Translations under genes and position numbers: made by a program
The notes under the pieces: model-generated
The model's input: only the letters and a program-made list of their open reading frames with translations
What the model was told of the DNA's origin: nothing
Database searches by the model: none
DNA from: Candidatus Pollutiaquabacter sp.
GTDB taxonomy: Bacteria; Bacteroidota; Bacteroidia; AKYH767-A; 2013-40CM-41-45
DNA length: 64,000 nucleotides
Assembly (NCBI GenBank): GCA_947465495.1
Contig: CANIAS010000001.1
Coordinates: forward strand, 62,001 to 126,000
Reading direction: 5' to 3'
Shown: positions 6,646-18,001 of the stretch, piece after piece
Position numbering within the stretch: the first letter of the stretch is position 1
Layout of the letters: each line of letters starts with the position of its first letter

Positions 6646-7383
6646 ATGCGATCGATTTATTTCTTCCTGACACTATTGTTCTTGACGCATTTCGCCAATG
6701 CTCAGTCCATCACCCCCGGAGCACGAAATCCTTTTTCATTTCAAGCTCGTTTCGGATTGCTTACCAACAACCCTGACTTAGGAGCAAAACTTTACAACAA
6801 AATAGACACCACGCTTTATCGTGAAATCAATACCGGGTACATGGCCGCTCCGGAACTTGATTTAAACATCGACCTCGTGCGGTACAAAGCCATGTGTATC
6901 GGCGTTCAACTTTCTGCCATCGTCGCACAACCTGGACTGCATGTCAAAGGTGGTGAAACAGAATACCTGGCCGGTGTAACCGATCTTTACATGGCCAAAG
7001 GAACACTTTGGTTTTCTTTCAACTCCAGCGGAGACCCTTACTCACTTTTCAGTCTTCCCTATCATGGTCAGGGAGAATCCATCATTGGATTCACTGGCGC
7101 CTTTAGTGAAACCAATGATATTCAACCCGCTTATCCAGCGACAGACAGCTTGGGTATAACCAACATTAATGGAAACACGTGTCGTTCCATTGGTTTTCTT
7201 TTCGGTTGGAATTGGCGCTTAGGTCAATCCAGTTGGGTGTTCGGCATCAGCGGATCACTGATGTGGTCGCTAGATGATAATTACCTCATCAATTTTGAAA
7301 CGAGCGAAGAAGCCCCCTATAAACCGGCCACGCTGGAATTTGCTCCGCGACTAATCACTGGTGGATTGGGATATCATTTTTAA
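6646..7383 (+). CDS. Predicted outer-membrane beta-barrel protein, unknown function
   Basis: 245 residues from the ATG at 6646; an in-frame TTG at 6634 lies inside the predicted -7 box and is rejected. Signal peptide MRSIYFFLTLLFLTHFANA followed by Q. The body has alternating amphipathic strands (FQARFGLL, CIGVQLSAIV, GFLFGWNWRLG, WVFGISGSLMW) and ends GGLGYHF, an outer-membrane barrel terminus. I do not recognise a named family. It follows another barrel gene but is separated from it by a strong terminator, so the two are not co-transcribed. Confidence 0.65.
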   Translation: MRSIYFFLTLLFLTHFANAQSITPGARNPFSFQARFGLLTNNPDLGAKLYNKIDTTLYREINTGYMAAPELDLNIDLVRYKAMCIGVQLSAIVAQPGLHVKGGETEYLAGVTDLYMAKGTLWFSFNSSGDPYSLFSLPYHGQGESIIGFTGAFSETNDIQPAYPATDSLGITNINGNTCRSIGFLFGWNWRLGQSSWVFGISGSLMWSLDDNYLINFETSEEAPYKPATLEFAPRLITGGLGYHF

Positions 7384-7458
7384 TAGTCCATCACTATTCT
7401 ACCACCCTAGGTTTTTTGAATGATGAACTCATTCGAAAATTTACAACTTATTGTTTTT

Positions 7459-7842
7459 TTATTTTCGCTTTAAGGGTACGCAGATGTATAAAAAAATAAT
7501 CCGTGAATACCGGAAAATCACCGGCGTAGATAGAACTGCAAATACGATTCCACTAATCATTAGTCGCCAAAAGTGTTCAAAGATTTCCCCGAACACCAAG
7601 TAATAACCAAAGACCAACATACAGAGTAGTCCAACCATCAGGATGTAACTGACGTACGCCGCCCCGAAATAAAAACCCGGCTCTACACGATTACTGCTTC
7701 CACAATTGGGACAAATCGGGTGCATCGACCCTATGTTTTTCAGGTCGTATGGGTTTGATGTTGCAAATACAGCATGTGAACGACAGGCCGGGCATTGCAT
7801 AGCAAGAACGCCAGAAATTAAGGAAGGATTGGACTTAAACAT
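7459..7842 (-). CDS. DUF983 family zinc-ribbon membrane protein
   Basis: 127 residues from the ATG at 7842. The N-terminal part has two CxxC pairs (CPAC and CPNC), a zinc ribbon. It is followed by GFYFGAAYVSY and two hydrophobic segments, the layout of DUF983 proteins common in Bacteroidota and alphaproteobacteria. The in-frame start at 7875 is a TTG upstream of the predicted promoter and is unlikely. Function in the family is unknown; membrane location is inferred from the hydrophobic segments. Confidence 0.8.
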   Translation of the reverse strand: MFKSNPSLISGVLAMQCPACRSHAVFATSNPYDLKNIGSMHPICPNCGSSNRVEPGFYFGAAYVSYILMVGLLCMLVFGYYLVFGEIFEHFWRLMISGIVFAVLSTPVIFRYSRIIFLYICVPLKRK

Positions 7843-7862
7843 CAATTTTAAAATTATAGTAG

Positions 7863-7870
7863 CAAAGTTA
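7863..7870 (-). promoter_or_regulatory. Predicted -7 box for the DUF983 gene
   Basis: On the minus strand this reads TAACTTTG, an exact TAnnTTTG match, 20 bp upstream of the ATG at 7842. It supports that start over the upstream TTG. Confidence 0.45.
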
Positions 7871-8022
7871 GCCAATCAATGGGTTTCTACTATCATTATT
7901 CTACCGTTGTAAGGTTTGAAAAGTCTGTGCATAAAAGGCGGAAATCTTGTCCTTAAAATCAACCAAATTGGACTAAAAAACTTGATTTTTATACAAGAAA
8001 TTTTCAATTGGCAGAGAAAGTC

Positions 8023-8055
8023 ATTGACCTAAGCTGCACCTGGAAATTATCTTTG
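8023..8055 (+). promoter_or_regulatory. Predicted Bacteroidota promoter of the 8187-14739 surface-protein pair
   Basis: ATTG at 8023-8026, a 21-bp spacer and TATCTTTG at 8048-8055, an exact -7 match at the consensus distance. It lies in the 311-bp gap between 7876 and 8186, which is AT-rich and otherwise shows no gene or repeat that I can see. The leader would be about 125 nt. Confidence 0.55.
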
Positions 8056-8186
8056 ATTTTGCGTTGAATTTCAATTTTATTTTATGATTAGCTGTTCACG
8101 TAAATTGTAATGGCATTCACATAAATGCACTTTTAAGGCCTCCCGCTCAAACTACATTTGCTATACCCAAACACTTCATTAATTCC

Positions 8187-11100
8187 ATGAAAAAAACGAT
8201 TCTAATATTGATCGGATTATTTATTTATTTCGGCTTTACCACGAATGCTCAGATCGTGTTTAGCCAAGAATATGGTGGCTCCGCCGATGAAGACGGACGT
8301 TGGATGGAACAAATGCCGGATTCCGGATTCATCATGGTTGGTGGAACCGAAACTTTTTCCAACGGACAAAGTGATGCATGGCTTGTTCGCACTGACCTTT
8401 ATGGAAATGTACTTTGGACACGTTCTTTCGGTGGCTCATTGTTCGATTTCGCAAACATGGTAAAGCCTACGCGTGATAATGGTTTTATCGTTGCCGGCTT
8501 TACCGCTGGTCCATACGGCGATAACGACGCTTGGATCTTTAAAACAAATTCCGCCGGCGGATTGCTTTGGTCGAAAACGCTTGCCGACACCGGTACTCAA
8601 GAACTGGAAGCAATCGTTCAAACCACAGACGGTGGCTTCGCAGCAGTAGGAGTTGACTATTCGCCAACGACGAACTACTACGATATGTTGGTAGTTCGAT
8701 ATGATACCGCTGGGAATACCTTGTGGACAAAACATCTTGGAGGTGCTTCCTTTGAATTAGGAAACTCCATTCAGCAAACTCCAGACGGGGGATTTATCAT
8801 CACCGGTATATCCTATAGTTATGGACTGGCAGACGGCGATTACATCCTTTATAAGCTAGACGCAAATGGCAATACCCAATGGTATAAAAATTATACAACC
8901 GCCGGCTTGCAAGAGCCGCACTACGTGCAACTCACCAGAGACGGTGGCTACATCATGGTAGGGGATGCTGACGACTTGGTCAACACCCTTGGCCAAACAG
9001 ATATCTGGGTAATAAAAACGAATTCTACAGGTGATACCCTTTGGACAAAAGTGTTGGGTGGTTCGAAAAAAGACGGCGGAAAAACGATTGAGCAAACGAC
9101 TGATGGTGGATATATTATCGGTGGTATCACTCGCTCCTACGGCTTGATTAATCCGAATTTTTATTTGGGTAAATTAGATAGTTTGTCAAATGTAGAATGG
9201 GAGAACACCCTCTATGGATCAGCCTATCACGATCATGCATATAGAGCCATTCAATGTTCTGATGGAGGCTACGCTAATTTCGGATACTTTCGAAATGCAT
9301 CATCCATTCAAAATTACGCTTTGGTTAAACTTGGTCCTGACGGCGGTGTCACCAAAGATATTTCGATCGATAATTTTATCGCACCTAGTACAAATATTTG
9401 TCGTGGTTTTGGCACAGCTATTACTTTGCAAATCACCAACTACGGCGCCATTAGCGAAAGCAATATTCCGTTGAAAGTAGTCATTTCAAATAGCACTTCT
9501 TCCACTACGCTATTCGATACCTTGCGTGGTGCAATCGACCCATCGTTCACAAAAACCATTACTTTTTCTCAGACCTACGACTTCTTGCAGAACGGCAGTT
9601 ATACTTTGACTGCATACATCTCTCACCTTCCTAACGATGTATCTTATACAAACGATACCAGTTACCTGAACGTTTCTGTAGTAGATCCAGTGAATGATCC
9701 TGTCACCACATCCGGCATCAGTTGCGGAAATGCACCTGTGGGGCTTAGAGCAGTACCTGCCAATGCTGCTGATTCTATATTCTGGTACAACAATACTGGT
9801 ATAATGATTGGAGCGGGCCGTTCGATCACCACCGATACACTCAGTGCTACTGCAACCTACTTCGCAGAAAGTCAACGCGGAATCGGTTATGCCTGTGGCC
9901 CGGTGGATAATACCATCGGAGCTGGAACTGCCACATCGACGGATGGAGCACTTCAATTTGACACACGCGTAGCGTTCAAATTAATTTCAGTCAAAGTATA
10001 TGCGGCAGTCACTGGAATCCGAATCATTGAATTGCGCGACGCCGCAGGAACCGTTCTTCAAACTAAAACAGTTAATCTACCAATTGGTTGGAGTAAAGTG
10101 TATTTGAACTTCGACGTGCCACAATCCACTGACTTACAATTAGCACTTGGCGCAGGCAGTCAGCCACTCTTCCGAAATACAAGCGGCGCAACTTTCCCAT
10201 ATGGCGTTTCACGTGTAGTTGAAATTTTCGGAGGTACTCCTGTAGCAACCCGTTACTATTACTTCTACGATTGGAGCATCTTTATTCCTTATCAAGAATG
10301 TACCAGCAATCGAATTGCCGCTGTTGCGCAAATTGGTTCAGGATCTTCCACAAGTTTCGATCGTTCCCGTTGCGGTGCAGGTCCAATAACCTTATCTGCC
10401 AATGCTACCGATCCACTCTCCTGGTACAGTGTATCGACAGGAGGGGCACCAGTAGCAACCGGCAATAGTTTCACCACAGCCAGTTTGTCGACTACCACGA
10501 CCTATTATTTGCAAGTCGGCAGCTGCGCTAATCGTGTGCCGGTGCAAGCGATTATCAATTCTGTTCCTTCCAATCCAGTAGTGAGCAGCGCAAGCAATTG
10601 TGGTCCTGGTAGTGTAACCCTCACAGCGACTTCTACTGCATCAGTCACTTGGTACGATGCCGCGACGAATGGTAATGCCTATGCAACTGGTTTGTCCTTC
10701 CAGACACCGTTTTTGAATAGCACGACCACCTTCTACGCAGTAGCAGGTACCGTATGTAAATCCGCGGCAATTCCTGCTGTAGCCATCATCAATGCTGCCA
10801 CAGCACCTATCGGCATCGGAACTCAAGCCTGCGGAGCAGCGTCCGTCACCCTATCTGCACAATCCTCTGATCCTATTCAATGGTATACATCCTTGACTGG
10901 TGGATCGGCAGTTTCGTCTGGAGCAACGTTCACAACACCAATTCTATCCACGTCAACAACCTATTATGCACAAGCTGTTAATACATGTCCTAGTGTTCGT
11001 ACCCCAGTAACTGCAACCATCGTTGTTGTAGCTCCGCCTTCCACCACCGACGGTTCGCATTGTGGGCAAGGAACGATTGTCCTGTCCGCGAATGCGCTCG

Positions 11101-15644: not shown

Positions 15645-16172
15645 TTAATTGGAATAGTCACGGTAAACAGACAGCCTTTTAGATAGCTCTTTACGGGCGT
15701 TGTGGATACGTACTTTAACTGTACCAAGCGGCAACTTGAGTTGAGAGGCGATTTCCTCGTATTTATACCCCGTGTAACTCATCATGAACGGCGTACGCAA
15801 GTTATCGTTGATATCGGCCAGCGCATGTTGAATGTCTTTCATGACGAGATTACTATCACCGTCGTTTCGCTGAGCGGTTGCAGTGTTATTAATGTAGTAT
15901 TGGTTTTCCGTATCGTCGTGAAAGATGTTAGACTTCATCGCACGGCGGTATTTATTGATAAAAATGTTCTTCATGATGGTGTATAGCCATCCTTTCAGAT
16001 TCGTTCCTTCCGCAAATTTCTCTTCGTTGGTGAATGCTTTGAGCATCGTATCCTGCACGAGATCATCCGCATCTTCCACATCTTGCGTTAGCTTCAAGGC
16101 ATAATTACGGAGCGGCCTTGATTCAATGGTGACCAGGGCACGAAAATCAAATTTGGGCTTTATAGGTGACAT
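15645..16172 (-). CDS. ECF-type RNA polymerase sigma factor
   Basis: 175 residues. Region 2 is visible (ALKLTQDVEDADDLVQDTML, then GWLYTIMKNIFINKYRR) and region 4 with its helix-turn-helix (YEEIASQLKLPLGTVKVRIHNARKEL). No anti-sigma gene lies beside it. It is divergent from folE across 170 bp holding three palindromes, and a B12-binding MerR regulator lies just beyond folE. In Bacteroidota close relatives of this sigma factor often sit with MerR and carotenoid genes, and in Streptomyces the LitS sigma factor is paired with LitR; from this I infer a light or stress role. Carotenoid genes are absent here. Confidence 0.88.
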   Translation of the reverse strand: MSPIKPKFDFRALVTIESRPLRNYALKLTQDVEDADDLVQDTMLKAFTNEEKFAEGTNLKGWLYTIMKNIFINKYRRAMKSNIFHDDTENQYYINNTATAQRNDGDSNLVMKDIQHALADINDNLRTPFMMSYTGYKYEEIASQLKLPLGTVKVRIHNARKELSKRLSVYRDYSN

Positions 16173-16173
16173 G

Positions 16174-16205
16174 TTGTTTAACTTTAATCATTATTTGTTA
16201 AACAA
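16174..16205. promoter_or_regulatory. Palindrome 1: candidate operator over the sigma-factor promoter
   Basis: TTGTTTAAC at 16174-16182 and its perfect reverse complement GTTAAACAA at 16197-16205, separated by 14 bp. The right arm overlaps the predicted minus-strand -7 box (16203-16210), so a bound protein would cover the sigma-gene promoter and the start of its transcript. Confidence 0.7.
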
Positions 16206-16210
16206 ATATA
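16203..16210 (-). promoter_or_regulatory. Predicted -7 box of the ECF sigma gene
   Basis: Minus strand reads TATATTTG, exact TAnnTTTG. CTTG lies 20 bp further upstream (16231-16234) as a weak -33 element. The leader would be about 25 nt. Confidence 0.5.
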
Positions 16211-16236
16211 GTTTTAGGTTCTTCGAATTGCAAGTT

Positions 16237-16268
16237 TTGTTTAACTATTTTAATCATTTATTAAACAT
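16237..16268. promoter_or_regulatory. Palindrome 2: candidate operator over the folE promoter
   Basis: TTGTTTAAC at 16237-16245 and ATTAAACAT at 16260-16268 (7 of 9 bases match palindrome 1), again with 14 bp between. Its last base is the first base of the predicted folE -7 box. The start is 63 bp from palindrome 1, six helical turns. Confidence 0.65.
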
Positions 16269-16275
16269 ACTTTTG
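16268..16275 (+). promoter_or_regulatory. Predicted -7 box of folE
   Basis: TACTTTTG, exact TAnnTTTG match, directly abutting palindrome 2. No good -33 element at 19-21 bp; this could mean dependence on an activator or an alternative sigma factor. The leader would be about 60 nt. Confidence 0.45.
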
Positions 16276-16309
16276 TGATTTAAGTGGGAAAAACAATTTT
16301 TCATTAGTG

Positions 16310-16341
16310 GTGTTTAGTTTCTAGTATTAGATTTTAAACAA
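16310..16341. promoter_or_regulatory. Palindrome 3: weaker candidate operator in the folE leader
   Basis: GTGTTTAGT (6 of 9 against the left arm) and TTTAAACAA (8 of 9 against the right arm) with the same 14-bp spacer, ending one base before the folE ATG. Offset from palindrome 2 is 73 bp, about seven turns. Confidence 0.45.
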
Positions 16342-16342
16342 A

Positions 16343-17032
16343 ATGCTCGAAAAGAACTTATCGCCTGATCATCAACACTTTGTGTCAATTGAAGACTTGC
16401 TGGGAGACGACCATATTGGTAGTGGGTCAGAAACTCCTATTCGAAAAGACGCATTTTCTATCGGAAACGAGGAAAAAATTGAGCTTATAAGCCGGAAGTT
16501 TCAGGATATACTCCACATTTTGGGCTTAGATCTACAGGATCCAAGTATTAAAGACACGCCCCGCAGGGTAGCTAAAATGTACGTTCAGGAGACTTTTGCC
16601 GGATTAAACCCAGCGAATAAACCCTCCGCCACTTTATTTGACAATACGTACAAATACAACCAGATGTTGGTTGAAAAGAACATCACGGTTCAATCGACGT
16701 GTGAGCACCATTTTGTACCAATTATGGGGAAAGCCCATGTGGCTTACATCTCTTCCGGGAAGGTGATCGGATTGTCAAAGCTGAATCGTATCGTGGATTA
16801 TTATTGTCGCCGTCCGCAGGTCCAGGAACGCCTTAGTATCCAAATTGCAGAAGAGTTAAAAAGGGTTCTAAATACACGCGATGTTGCAGTTATTATTGAT
16901 GCAGAGCATTTGTGTGTAAAATCACGTGGCATAAAAGACCAGCACAGCAGTACCGTGACGGCGTCTTACCATGGAAAATTCCTAAACGAATCAACGCGTC
17001 ACGAACTGATGCGTTTCATTGATATGAAATAA
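16343..17032 (+). CDS. folE: GTP cyclohydrolase I
   Basis: Converts GTP to 7,8-dihydroneopterin triphosphate, the first step of tetrahydrofolate and pterin synthesis. 229 residues, normal for FolE. Zinc ligands are visible: Cys120 and His123 in the STCEHHF motif and Cys191 in HLCVKSRGI. The substrate-binding segment QVQERLSIQIA is intact. It is divergent from an ECF sigma gene and followed by a convergent MerR-B12 regulator. Pterins serve as photolyase/cryptochrome cofactors, and folE is reported among light-induced genes in other bacteria, which fits the candidate light circuit here; that link is inference. Confidence 0.96.
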   Translation: MLEKNLSPDHQHFVSIEDLLGDDHIGSGSETPIRKDAFSIGNEEKIELISRKFQDILHILGLDLQDPSIKDTPRRVAKMYVQETFAGLNPANKPSATLFDNTYKYNQMLVEKNITVQSTCEHHFVPIMGKAHVAYISSGKVIGLSKLNRIVDYYCRRPQVQERLSIQIAEELKRVLNTRDVAVIIDAEHLCVKSRGIKDQHSSTVTASYHGKFLNESTRHELMRFIDMK

Positions 17033-17090: not shown

Positions 17091-17963
17091 TTAAAAAAAT
17101 CGTCGTAAATCATTAGGAGATTTCACCACGTGCACTCCTTCTGGATATTCTTCTGTCTGCTCTAAAAAATACCTGCCGGTAAGAAGTAAAACGGACTTCG
17201 GAAATTTCGCTTTCAATTCCTGCACAAATCCATTCGAAACAGGACGAGCAAAAGCTGTTGTCATGGAAGTGAATAATACATCTACTCGATACTTGGATGA
17301 AATTTGTTCCAAGTCGACTAATGGTAGATTAGTTCCAAGGTATAAAGTGCGATGACCGGACGATCGAATGATGTAATTGGCGAAGAGTAGCCCCAATTCG
17401 TGGAACTCCCCTTCGGGAAGGAACAGAAGAAAATTACGCGCATCAGAACGTAATTTATGTTCTTGCCCGTCTATGGCTACGATGAGTTTCTGTCGAAGCA
17501 AGGCGGAAATAAAATGTTCGTAAGCAGGATCAAGGGTGCCCGTTTGCCATAAAACACCAATCATACCCATGAATGGGAACACCACTTCCATCATGGTGCC
17601 CTCTAGGCCATATTGAAGAACACTAGAGCCAATCACCTTCTCAAAAGATCGTTCGTCAAAATCCAACATGGAGGTAACCAATGACTGAATATGCATGGAT
17701 TGATTACTGGACGACAAAGAGAGATTGACCGCAATAACACTAATTTCCTGAGCCGACATACGACTGATGCTGGAAATCTTATGTCCGTGTTGGTTAAGCA
17801 TGGAGATATTCAACAACAACCGTAAATCCGAATCGTCGTAGTATCGAATATTTCCTGTGGTCCGTTTAGGCTTCGGTAAATTGTAACGCTGTTCCCAGAT
17901 GCGAAGGGTATGCGCGCGGATTCCCGTTAGGTGTTCAATATCTTTGATGGAAAACTGGCTCAT
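17091..17963 (-). CDS. MerR-family regulator with cobalamin-binding domain (CarH/LitR type)
   Basis: 290 residues. Residues 1-70 are a MerR winged helix (SIKDIEHLTGIRAHTLRIWEQRY, then GNIRYYDDSDLRLL). Residues about 90-165 form the four-helix bundle and 175-290 the Rossmann-like B12 domain. Trp139 is followed by nine residues and Glu149-His150, the W-x9-EH signature that shields adenosylcobalamin in CarH. GEFHELG (His188) matches the D/ExHxxG lower-ligand motif. The position after Trp139 is Gln140, where Thermus CarH has the His that caps cobalt after illumination. I infer a light- or B12-responsive repressor; its targets are probably the palindromes before the sigma gene and folE. Confidence 0.9.
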   Translation of the reverse strand: MSQFSIKDIEHLTGIRAHTLRIWEQRYNLPKPKRTTGNIRYYDDSDLRLLLNISMLNQHGHKISSISRMSAQEISVIAVNLSLSSSNQSMHIQSLVTSMLDFDERSFEKVIGSSVLQYGLEGTMMEVVFPFMGMIGVLWQTGTLDPAYEHFISALLRQKLIVAIDGQEHKLRSDARNFLLFLPEGEFHELGLLFANYIIRSSGHRTLYLGTNLPLVDLEQISSKYRVDVLFTSMTTAFARPVSNGFVQELKAKFPKSVLLLTGRYFLEQTEEYPEGVHVVKSPNDLRRFF

Positions 17964-17970
17964 GCTTTCA

Positions 17971-18001
17971 ATTAAACATTTTTACTGCCAAATTGTTTAT
18001 C
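17971..18001. promoter_or_regulatory. Two operator-like half-sites upstream of the MerR-B12 gene
   Basis: ATTAAACAT at 17971-17979 (identical to the right arm of palindrome 2) and TTGTTTATC at 17993-18001 (8 of 9 to the left arm), in the opposite order to the palindromes. They start 8 bp before the regulator's ATG, so autoregulation is possible. The region is AT-rich and chance is not excluded. Confidence 0.35.

Follow-up and report, generated by a model that had tools for sequence, protein, structure and literature searches.

Three closely similar inverted repeats lie between a gene for an ECF sigma factor and the divergently transcribed folE gene in Candidatus Pollutiaquabacter sp., within the 64,000-nucleotide stretch of DNA analysed here (hereafter the window). 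We consider it likely that they are the operators of the adjacent CarH/LitR-like, B12-binding MerR protein, which would repress the sigma gene and folE in the dark and release them in the light; data on light, B12 or binding are not at hand. Given the recurrence of the site in relatives, we also favour, with less assurance, a wider reading in which Bacteroidia share a B12-dependent light regulon, comprising a CarH-like protein and a single inverted-repeat operator, TGTTTA-N18-TAAACA, of a geometry not described for CarH, and with direct control of rhodopsin as well as ECF sigma, carotenoid and pterin genes.

Three copies of one site between the sigma factor gene and folE

The genes and sequence elements concerned are located in the window as follows.

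15645..16172, minus strand: ECF sigma factor gene, 175 aa (Pfam Sigma70_r2 and r4_2)
16174-16205, no strand: operator copy 1, TTGTTTAAC-N14-GTTAAACAA, arms 9/9 complementary
16203..16210, minus strand: -7 element of the sigma gene, TATATTTG, at offset -6 from copy 1 and overlapping it
16231..16233, minus strand: likely -33 element of the sigma gene, TTG, 20 bp before the -7 element (from sequence)
16237-16268, no strand: operator copy 2, TTGTTTAAC-N14-ATTAAACAT, arms 7/9 complementary
16268..16275, plus strand: -7 element of folE, TACTTTTG (from sequence)
16310-16341, no strand: operator copy 3, GTGTTTAGT-N14-TTTAAACAA, arms 6/9 complementary
16343..17032, plus strand: folE, GTP cyclohydrolase I, 229 aa (TIGR00063/NF006824 above cut-off)
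17091..17963, minus strand: CarH/LitR-like MerR regulator with B12-binding domain, 290 aa (Pfam MerR_1 and B12-binding_2)
17973..17999, no strand: everted half-sites TAAACA-N15-TGTTTA, just upstream of merR (from sequence)

An earlier, sequence-only reading of this DNA had reported the three palindromes, and its coordinates, arms, spacer and offsets proved correct to the base. The spacer measures 14 bp in all three copies, the start-to-start offsets are 63 and 73 bp, and copies 2 and 3 have 16/18 and 14/18 arm bases, respectively, in common with copy 1. The placement relative to the two promoters, also part of that reading, held up as well. Copy 1 overlaps the -7 box of the sigma gene (16210-16203 on the minus strand), spans the predicted sigma transcription start and is separated from the sigma ATG by one base. 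Copy 2, described as adjoining the -7 box of folE, shares its last base with that box (16268-16275), covers the folE core promoter and lies 3 bases away from the TTG at 16231..16233, which we take to be the -33 element of the sigma gene from the general Bacteroidota promoter consensus. Copy 3 ends at 16341, leaving a single base before the folE ATG at 16343.

Common to all three copies is the exact core TGTTTA-N18-TAAACA, which has three matches in the whole 2,721,070-base genome, all of them in the intergenic region 16174-16341. When the 170-bp region was shuffled with its dinucleotides preserved, none of 20,000 shuffles contained even two copies of the core. In the same shuffle test a single palindrome of at least 8/9 arose by chance with P=0.11, and the palindromy of the two weaker copies was by itself not significant (at least 7/9, P=0.28); the significance of the array rests on the common sequence and spacing, not on the palindromy of these weaker copies. 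The half-site TAAACA, which fits TnnACA, is found in 6/6 arms, and all TnnACA elements of the region fall within the six arms, except for one overlapping TTAACA; no TnnACA pairs at 11 bp were present in the window region. One-mismatch matches to the core were no commoner genome-wide than those of a reversed-pattern control and were not counted as regulon members.

Elsewhere the genome encodes a CrtZ-CrtI-CrtB cluster, a photolyase/cryptochrome-family protein and an ATP:cob(I)alamin adenosyltransferase. Both the crtZ-crtI-crtB cluster and the photolyase gene were checked, and no operator was found at either. Since the exact operator occurs only at the sigma-folE locus in this genome, any wider response must go via the sigma factor or weaker sites. 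The everted half-sites at 17973-17999 might, speculatively, be a weak autoregulatory site of merR.

Arms and gap length are conserved in Bacteroidia

In the merR loci of 80 named relatives (Algoriphagus, Pontibacter, Roseivirga, Marivirga, Bacteroidales MAGs and others), the pair TGTTTA..TAAACA was found 56 times at a gap of 18 and 9 times at a gap of 19, whereas each remaining gap between 0 and 60 yielded 0-3 occurrences. Relatives thus keep the arms and the length of the gap while the spacer sequence varies, as the sequence-only reading had anticipated, and neither of the outcomes that it had named as refuting it, arms not conserved in relatives or a pattern at chance frequency, was encountered. 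Within the same genus, a genome with the same gene order (G008, L024) retains three right half-sites in the exact register 0/63/73, with one left half-site decayed and another moved, and a further genome (G007, L025) carries two copies with a 19-bp gap and a 65-bp offset.

Sites in relatives were mostly located between merR and the sigma gene, a homologue of which adjoins merR in many Bacteroidota. Their position is partly shared down to the base: a site at -32 relative to the sigma ATG is common to the window, Pontibacter, Adhaeribacter, Sabulibacter and a same-genus genome, and the core ends two bases before this ATG in the window and the three named genera. In Algoriphagus the core starts 43-49 bp before the sigma ATG. 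For 34 of 76 named merR loci, for example in Spirosoma, Runella and Emticicia, no good gap-18/19 site was found within 600 bp downstream of merR, and among 145 sites an 11-bp offset was not enriched. Outside the class, the operator was detected in 1/111 genomes of the same phylum, whose G+C content was not matched; leaving base composition aside, it appears essentially confined to Bacteroidia. Exact sites inside genes (L033, L035, L040 and L043) were treated as chance occurrences.

The site travels with a CarH-like MerR protein

We surveyed 247 Bacteroidia genomes for the exact sequence TGTTTAA-N16-TTAAACA and found a site in 125 of the 159 genomes that encode the MerR protein versus 9 of the 88 that lack it (Fisher P=7e-27, in a test that takes genomes as independent, though related genomes are not). 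The number of sites was 249 and 9 in these two groups, compared with 24 and 4 for a reversed-pattern control. In four relatives (G009, G010, G246 and G111) a site stands 3-7 bp before merR itself, and in two of these (G009 and G010) the 16 kb around that merR yielded no homologue of the sigma gene, which favours the MerR protein over the sigma factor as the common denominator. In the absence of binding data, this co-occurrence points to the MerR protein as the putative binder of the operator.

The window protein carries an N-terminal MerR winged-helix DNA-binding domain (Pfam MerR_1, E=6.6e-16), the CarH signature W-X9-EH at residues 139-150 (W139-X9-E149-H150) and the axial-ligand histidine H188 (E186-x-H188). 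W-X9-EH was present in 80/80 homologues and H188 was invariant in 34, and the final G of E-x-D/E-x-H-x-x-G, replaced in most relatives, is present in the window protein. Among solved structures the protein is closest to Thermus CarH (PDB 5c8d, E=7.6e-24), and the best matches of its AlphaFold model (pLDDT 88.8) are the AdoCbl-bound CarH structures 5c8e and 5c8d. Whole-chain TM-scores were only 0.5-0.6, with a high rmsd, as against about 3 Angstrom for the B12 domain alone; we read the low whole-chain value as an effect of domain orientation. The NCBIfam equivalog TransRegCarH is the best family match of the protein, yet a distant one, given that its score of 114.6 bits does not reach the cut-off of 400. 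In one relative (G006, L029) the MerR protein encoded at 7336-8196 has an asparagine in place of the axial-ligand histidine, which would make it a natural candidate for a light-blind variant.

Relation to known B12-based light regulators

How B12 photoreceptors exert light control is understood for Thermus, Bacillus, Myxococcus and Streptomyces; Bacteroidota rank among the main groups of aquatic heterotrophs that are exposed to light. A light switch shared across Bacteroidota is apparently undescribed: a literature search for a CarH/LitR operator in Bacteroidota, limited to open-licence papers, returned nothing relevant. A paper on the Echinicola carotenoid cluster names merR and rpoE genes but mentions neither light nor an operator (PMC8683446), and in rhodopsin-bearing Dokdonia the regulation of proteorhodopsin expression was still to be worked out (PMC3587595).

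The closest parallel is CarH of Thermus thermophilus and Bacillus megaterium, which has the same MerR and B12 domains, W-X9-EH and axial histidine. Its operators likewise use the half-site TnnACA and overlap promoters, and carotenoid genes are among the targets in the Bacteroidia relatives, too. However, CarH operators are described as three or four tandem 11-bp direct repeats (PMC8156234, PMC9304148), whereas the half-sites described here are inverted and 24 bp apart from centre to centre, the Bacteroidia operators comprise between one and three sites, with 41-45 or 62-64 bp as frequent distances between them, and the regulon includes rhodopsin, folE and PTPS genes. Because of this difference in layout, the binding mode of the MerR protein on inverted sites is unproven. 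As TAAACA fits TnnACA but is laid out differently, we call the system, on the basis of its sequence, CarH-like with a putative new operator variant, and not a standard CarH operator.

In Streptomyces coelicolor the B12-based MerR light sensor LitR acts on an ECF sigma gene, litS, and thereby on carotenoid genes (PMC12705666). Bacteroidia likewise combine a B12-type MerR protein with an ECF sigma gene, at which the operator is present; the Streptomyces system differs in phylum and in the positive control of litS, whose transcription LitR is described as promoting after light, and folE lies outside that description (PMC12705666). For folE as a light target, class II LitR of Pseudomonas putida and P. 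mendocina offers a precedent, with folE light-inducible along with photolyase genes (PMC9758184), but this regulator has lost one of two B12-binding parts and acts together with a LOV protein, and the sites reported for it are T(G/A)TACA and TGTACA. The CarA/CarH operator of Myxococcus xanthus, of about 55 bp, is also described as having two inverted repeats, one of which overlaps the -35 element (PMC9304148); their spacing was not compared with ours, they have also been read as TnnACA direct repeats, and the operator controls a carotenoid operon, not an ECF sigma gene.

Promoter geometry and proposed mode of action

In 99 site-gene pairs, the offset of the -7 element TAnnTTTG from the site start peaked at -6 (n=13), 4 (n=8) and 14/15 (n=18), with further peaks at 36 and 58. 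The element fell within -10 to +20 of the site start in 44 cases, versus 8 for the reversed motif, and -6, the commonest single offset, is that of the sigma promoter in the window. Such a geometry is what one would expect if an occupied site blocked the -7 element and the start point, and offsets that differ by steps of 10 bp suggest one face of the helix. The helical phasing that the sequence-only reading had proposed for the copies themselves was upheld only in part: a 62-64 bp offset recurs in other genera, but neighbouring sites in relatives cluster at 41-45 bp as well, and 44 bp corresponds to 4.2 turns.

By analogy with CarH (PMC8156234) and LitR-LitS (PMC12705666), from which the order of events is carried over without having been shown for the MerR system here, the MerR protein would bind adenosylcobalamin in the dark, oligomerise and occupy the sites. 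On copy 1 it would mask the -7 element of the sigma promoter together with the start region, and on copies 2 and 3 the folE core promoter and leader. Light would then break the Co-C bond, the protein would let go, and both the ECF sigma factor and GTP cyclohydrolase I would be made; the sigma factor, as a proposed amplifier, would presumably switch on distant genes such as the operator-less crtZ-crtI-crtB cluster. The computational analysis established that the sites exist and are conserved, that they go with the MerR protein and hold fixed positions relative to the -7 element, and that the B12-domain residues are present; that the protein depends on adenosylcobalamin, represses and lets go in light, and that a sigma cascade follows, is inferred by homology. 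A use of folE in supplying reduced pterins or folate for the photolyase antenna or for repair is plausible, although this is speculation.

Genes downstream of the operator and alternative readings

Genes starting just downstream of sites, in a convenience subset of sites, encoded the sigma factor, MerR, FolE, PTPS (6-pyruvoyl-tetrahydropterin synthase), CrtI, CrtZ, rhodopsin, DUF4397 and fasciclin proteins. The operator precedes folE homologues in G225, G134 and G137, in the last on a contig separate from merR, and PTPS genes in four genomes (L158:4005, L168:6751, L181:4041 and L183:4016), which suggests a light-induced pterin pathway. CrtI was found downstream in three genomes and CrtZ in two; the latter two proteins have no Pfam or NCBIfam match, and we take them to be CrtZ only from their similarity to known CrtZ sequence features. 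Microbial rhodopsin genes followed the operator in three genomes and, because the subset was one of convenience, were tested separately. Among 70 rhodopsin genes collected by family search, 28 were preceded, within 450 bp, by a sequence that matched the operator at 11/12 or better; the reversed pattern gave 1/70, and base shuffles led to an expectation of 0.35. Of the 247 genomes, 54 carry rhodopsin, and every one of these encodes the MerR protein (P=1.6e-12). The earlier expectation of further copies before light-response genes was thus borne out in relatives (rhodopsin, crtI, crtZ and folE); in the window's own genome no further exact copies precede other genes.

All of this evidence is comparative, and an association leaves room for a second DNA-binding protein inherited along with merR, or for activation in place of repression. 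Activators are numerous among MerR proteins, and it is conceivable, albeit unlikely, that this one binds the sites but activates, or that it senses B12 supply or redox instead of light. Streptomyces LitR is said to promote litS after light (PMC12705666); the commonest sites here, however, overlap the -7 element and start and not the -33/-7 spacer, as expected for occlusion. A role in oxidative stress would suit some of the regulon genes just as well, but the targets include rhodopsins, and the regulator is present in 54/54 genomes that bear them.

That the palindromes are bound by another factor, for instance a Crp/Fnr-type protein or an unrelated dimer travelling with merR, strikes us as distinctly improbable. 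Association alone has been shown, and one site does lie near a Crp-like gene (L046_6), yet sites stand directly before merR in four relatives, two of them without a sigma gene in 16 kb, the core matches the CarH TnnACA consensus, and the co-occurrence with MerR is very strong. We give hardly any credence to the repeats being elements of a promoter or terminator, or A+T-rich palindromes that arose by chance: the region is A+T-rich, single palindromes arise by chance (P=0.11-0.28 for at least 8/9 and at least 7/9) and the left arms resemble a -33 TTTG, but the gap is fixed at 18 across the class, reversed controls are low, and the sites are unique in the genome and depend on whether MerR is present. 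This last reading was rejected as contradicted by the gap-18 enrichment and the MerR co-occurrence.

If a Bacteroidia-wide B12 regulon under the CarH-like protein is real, it would explain the way in which rhodopsin is switched on by light in many Bacteroidota. A defined operator and a candidate sensor make proteorhodopsin regulation directly testable, the operator sequence can serve as a regulon predictor for many genomes, and its layout suggests that the CarH half-site can take a different geometry.

The operator at L170:4064 and L168:6751 precedes a small protein that resembles SRPBCC proteins by eye and that, in the case of L170_4, has no Pfam or NCBIfam match. Secreted DUF4397 proteins were found downstream eight times (L160, L163, L164, L172, L174, L046, L047 and L048), with sites at about 4 kb, or at 1457 in L047 and 5080 in L048, and a fasciclin-domain protein once (L182); why a light switch would drive such genes is unexplained. 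At one rhodopsin promoter (L246, G245:C1:463845-463908), two exact operators have starts just 34 bp apart.
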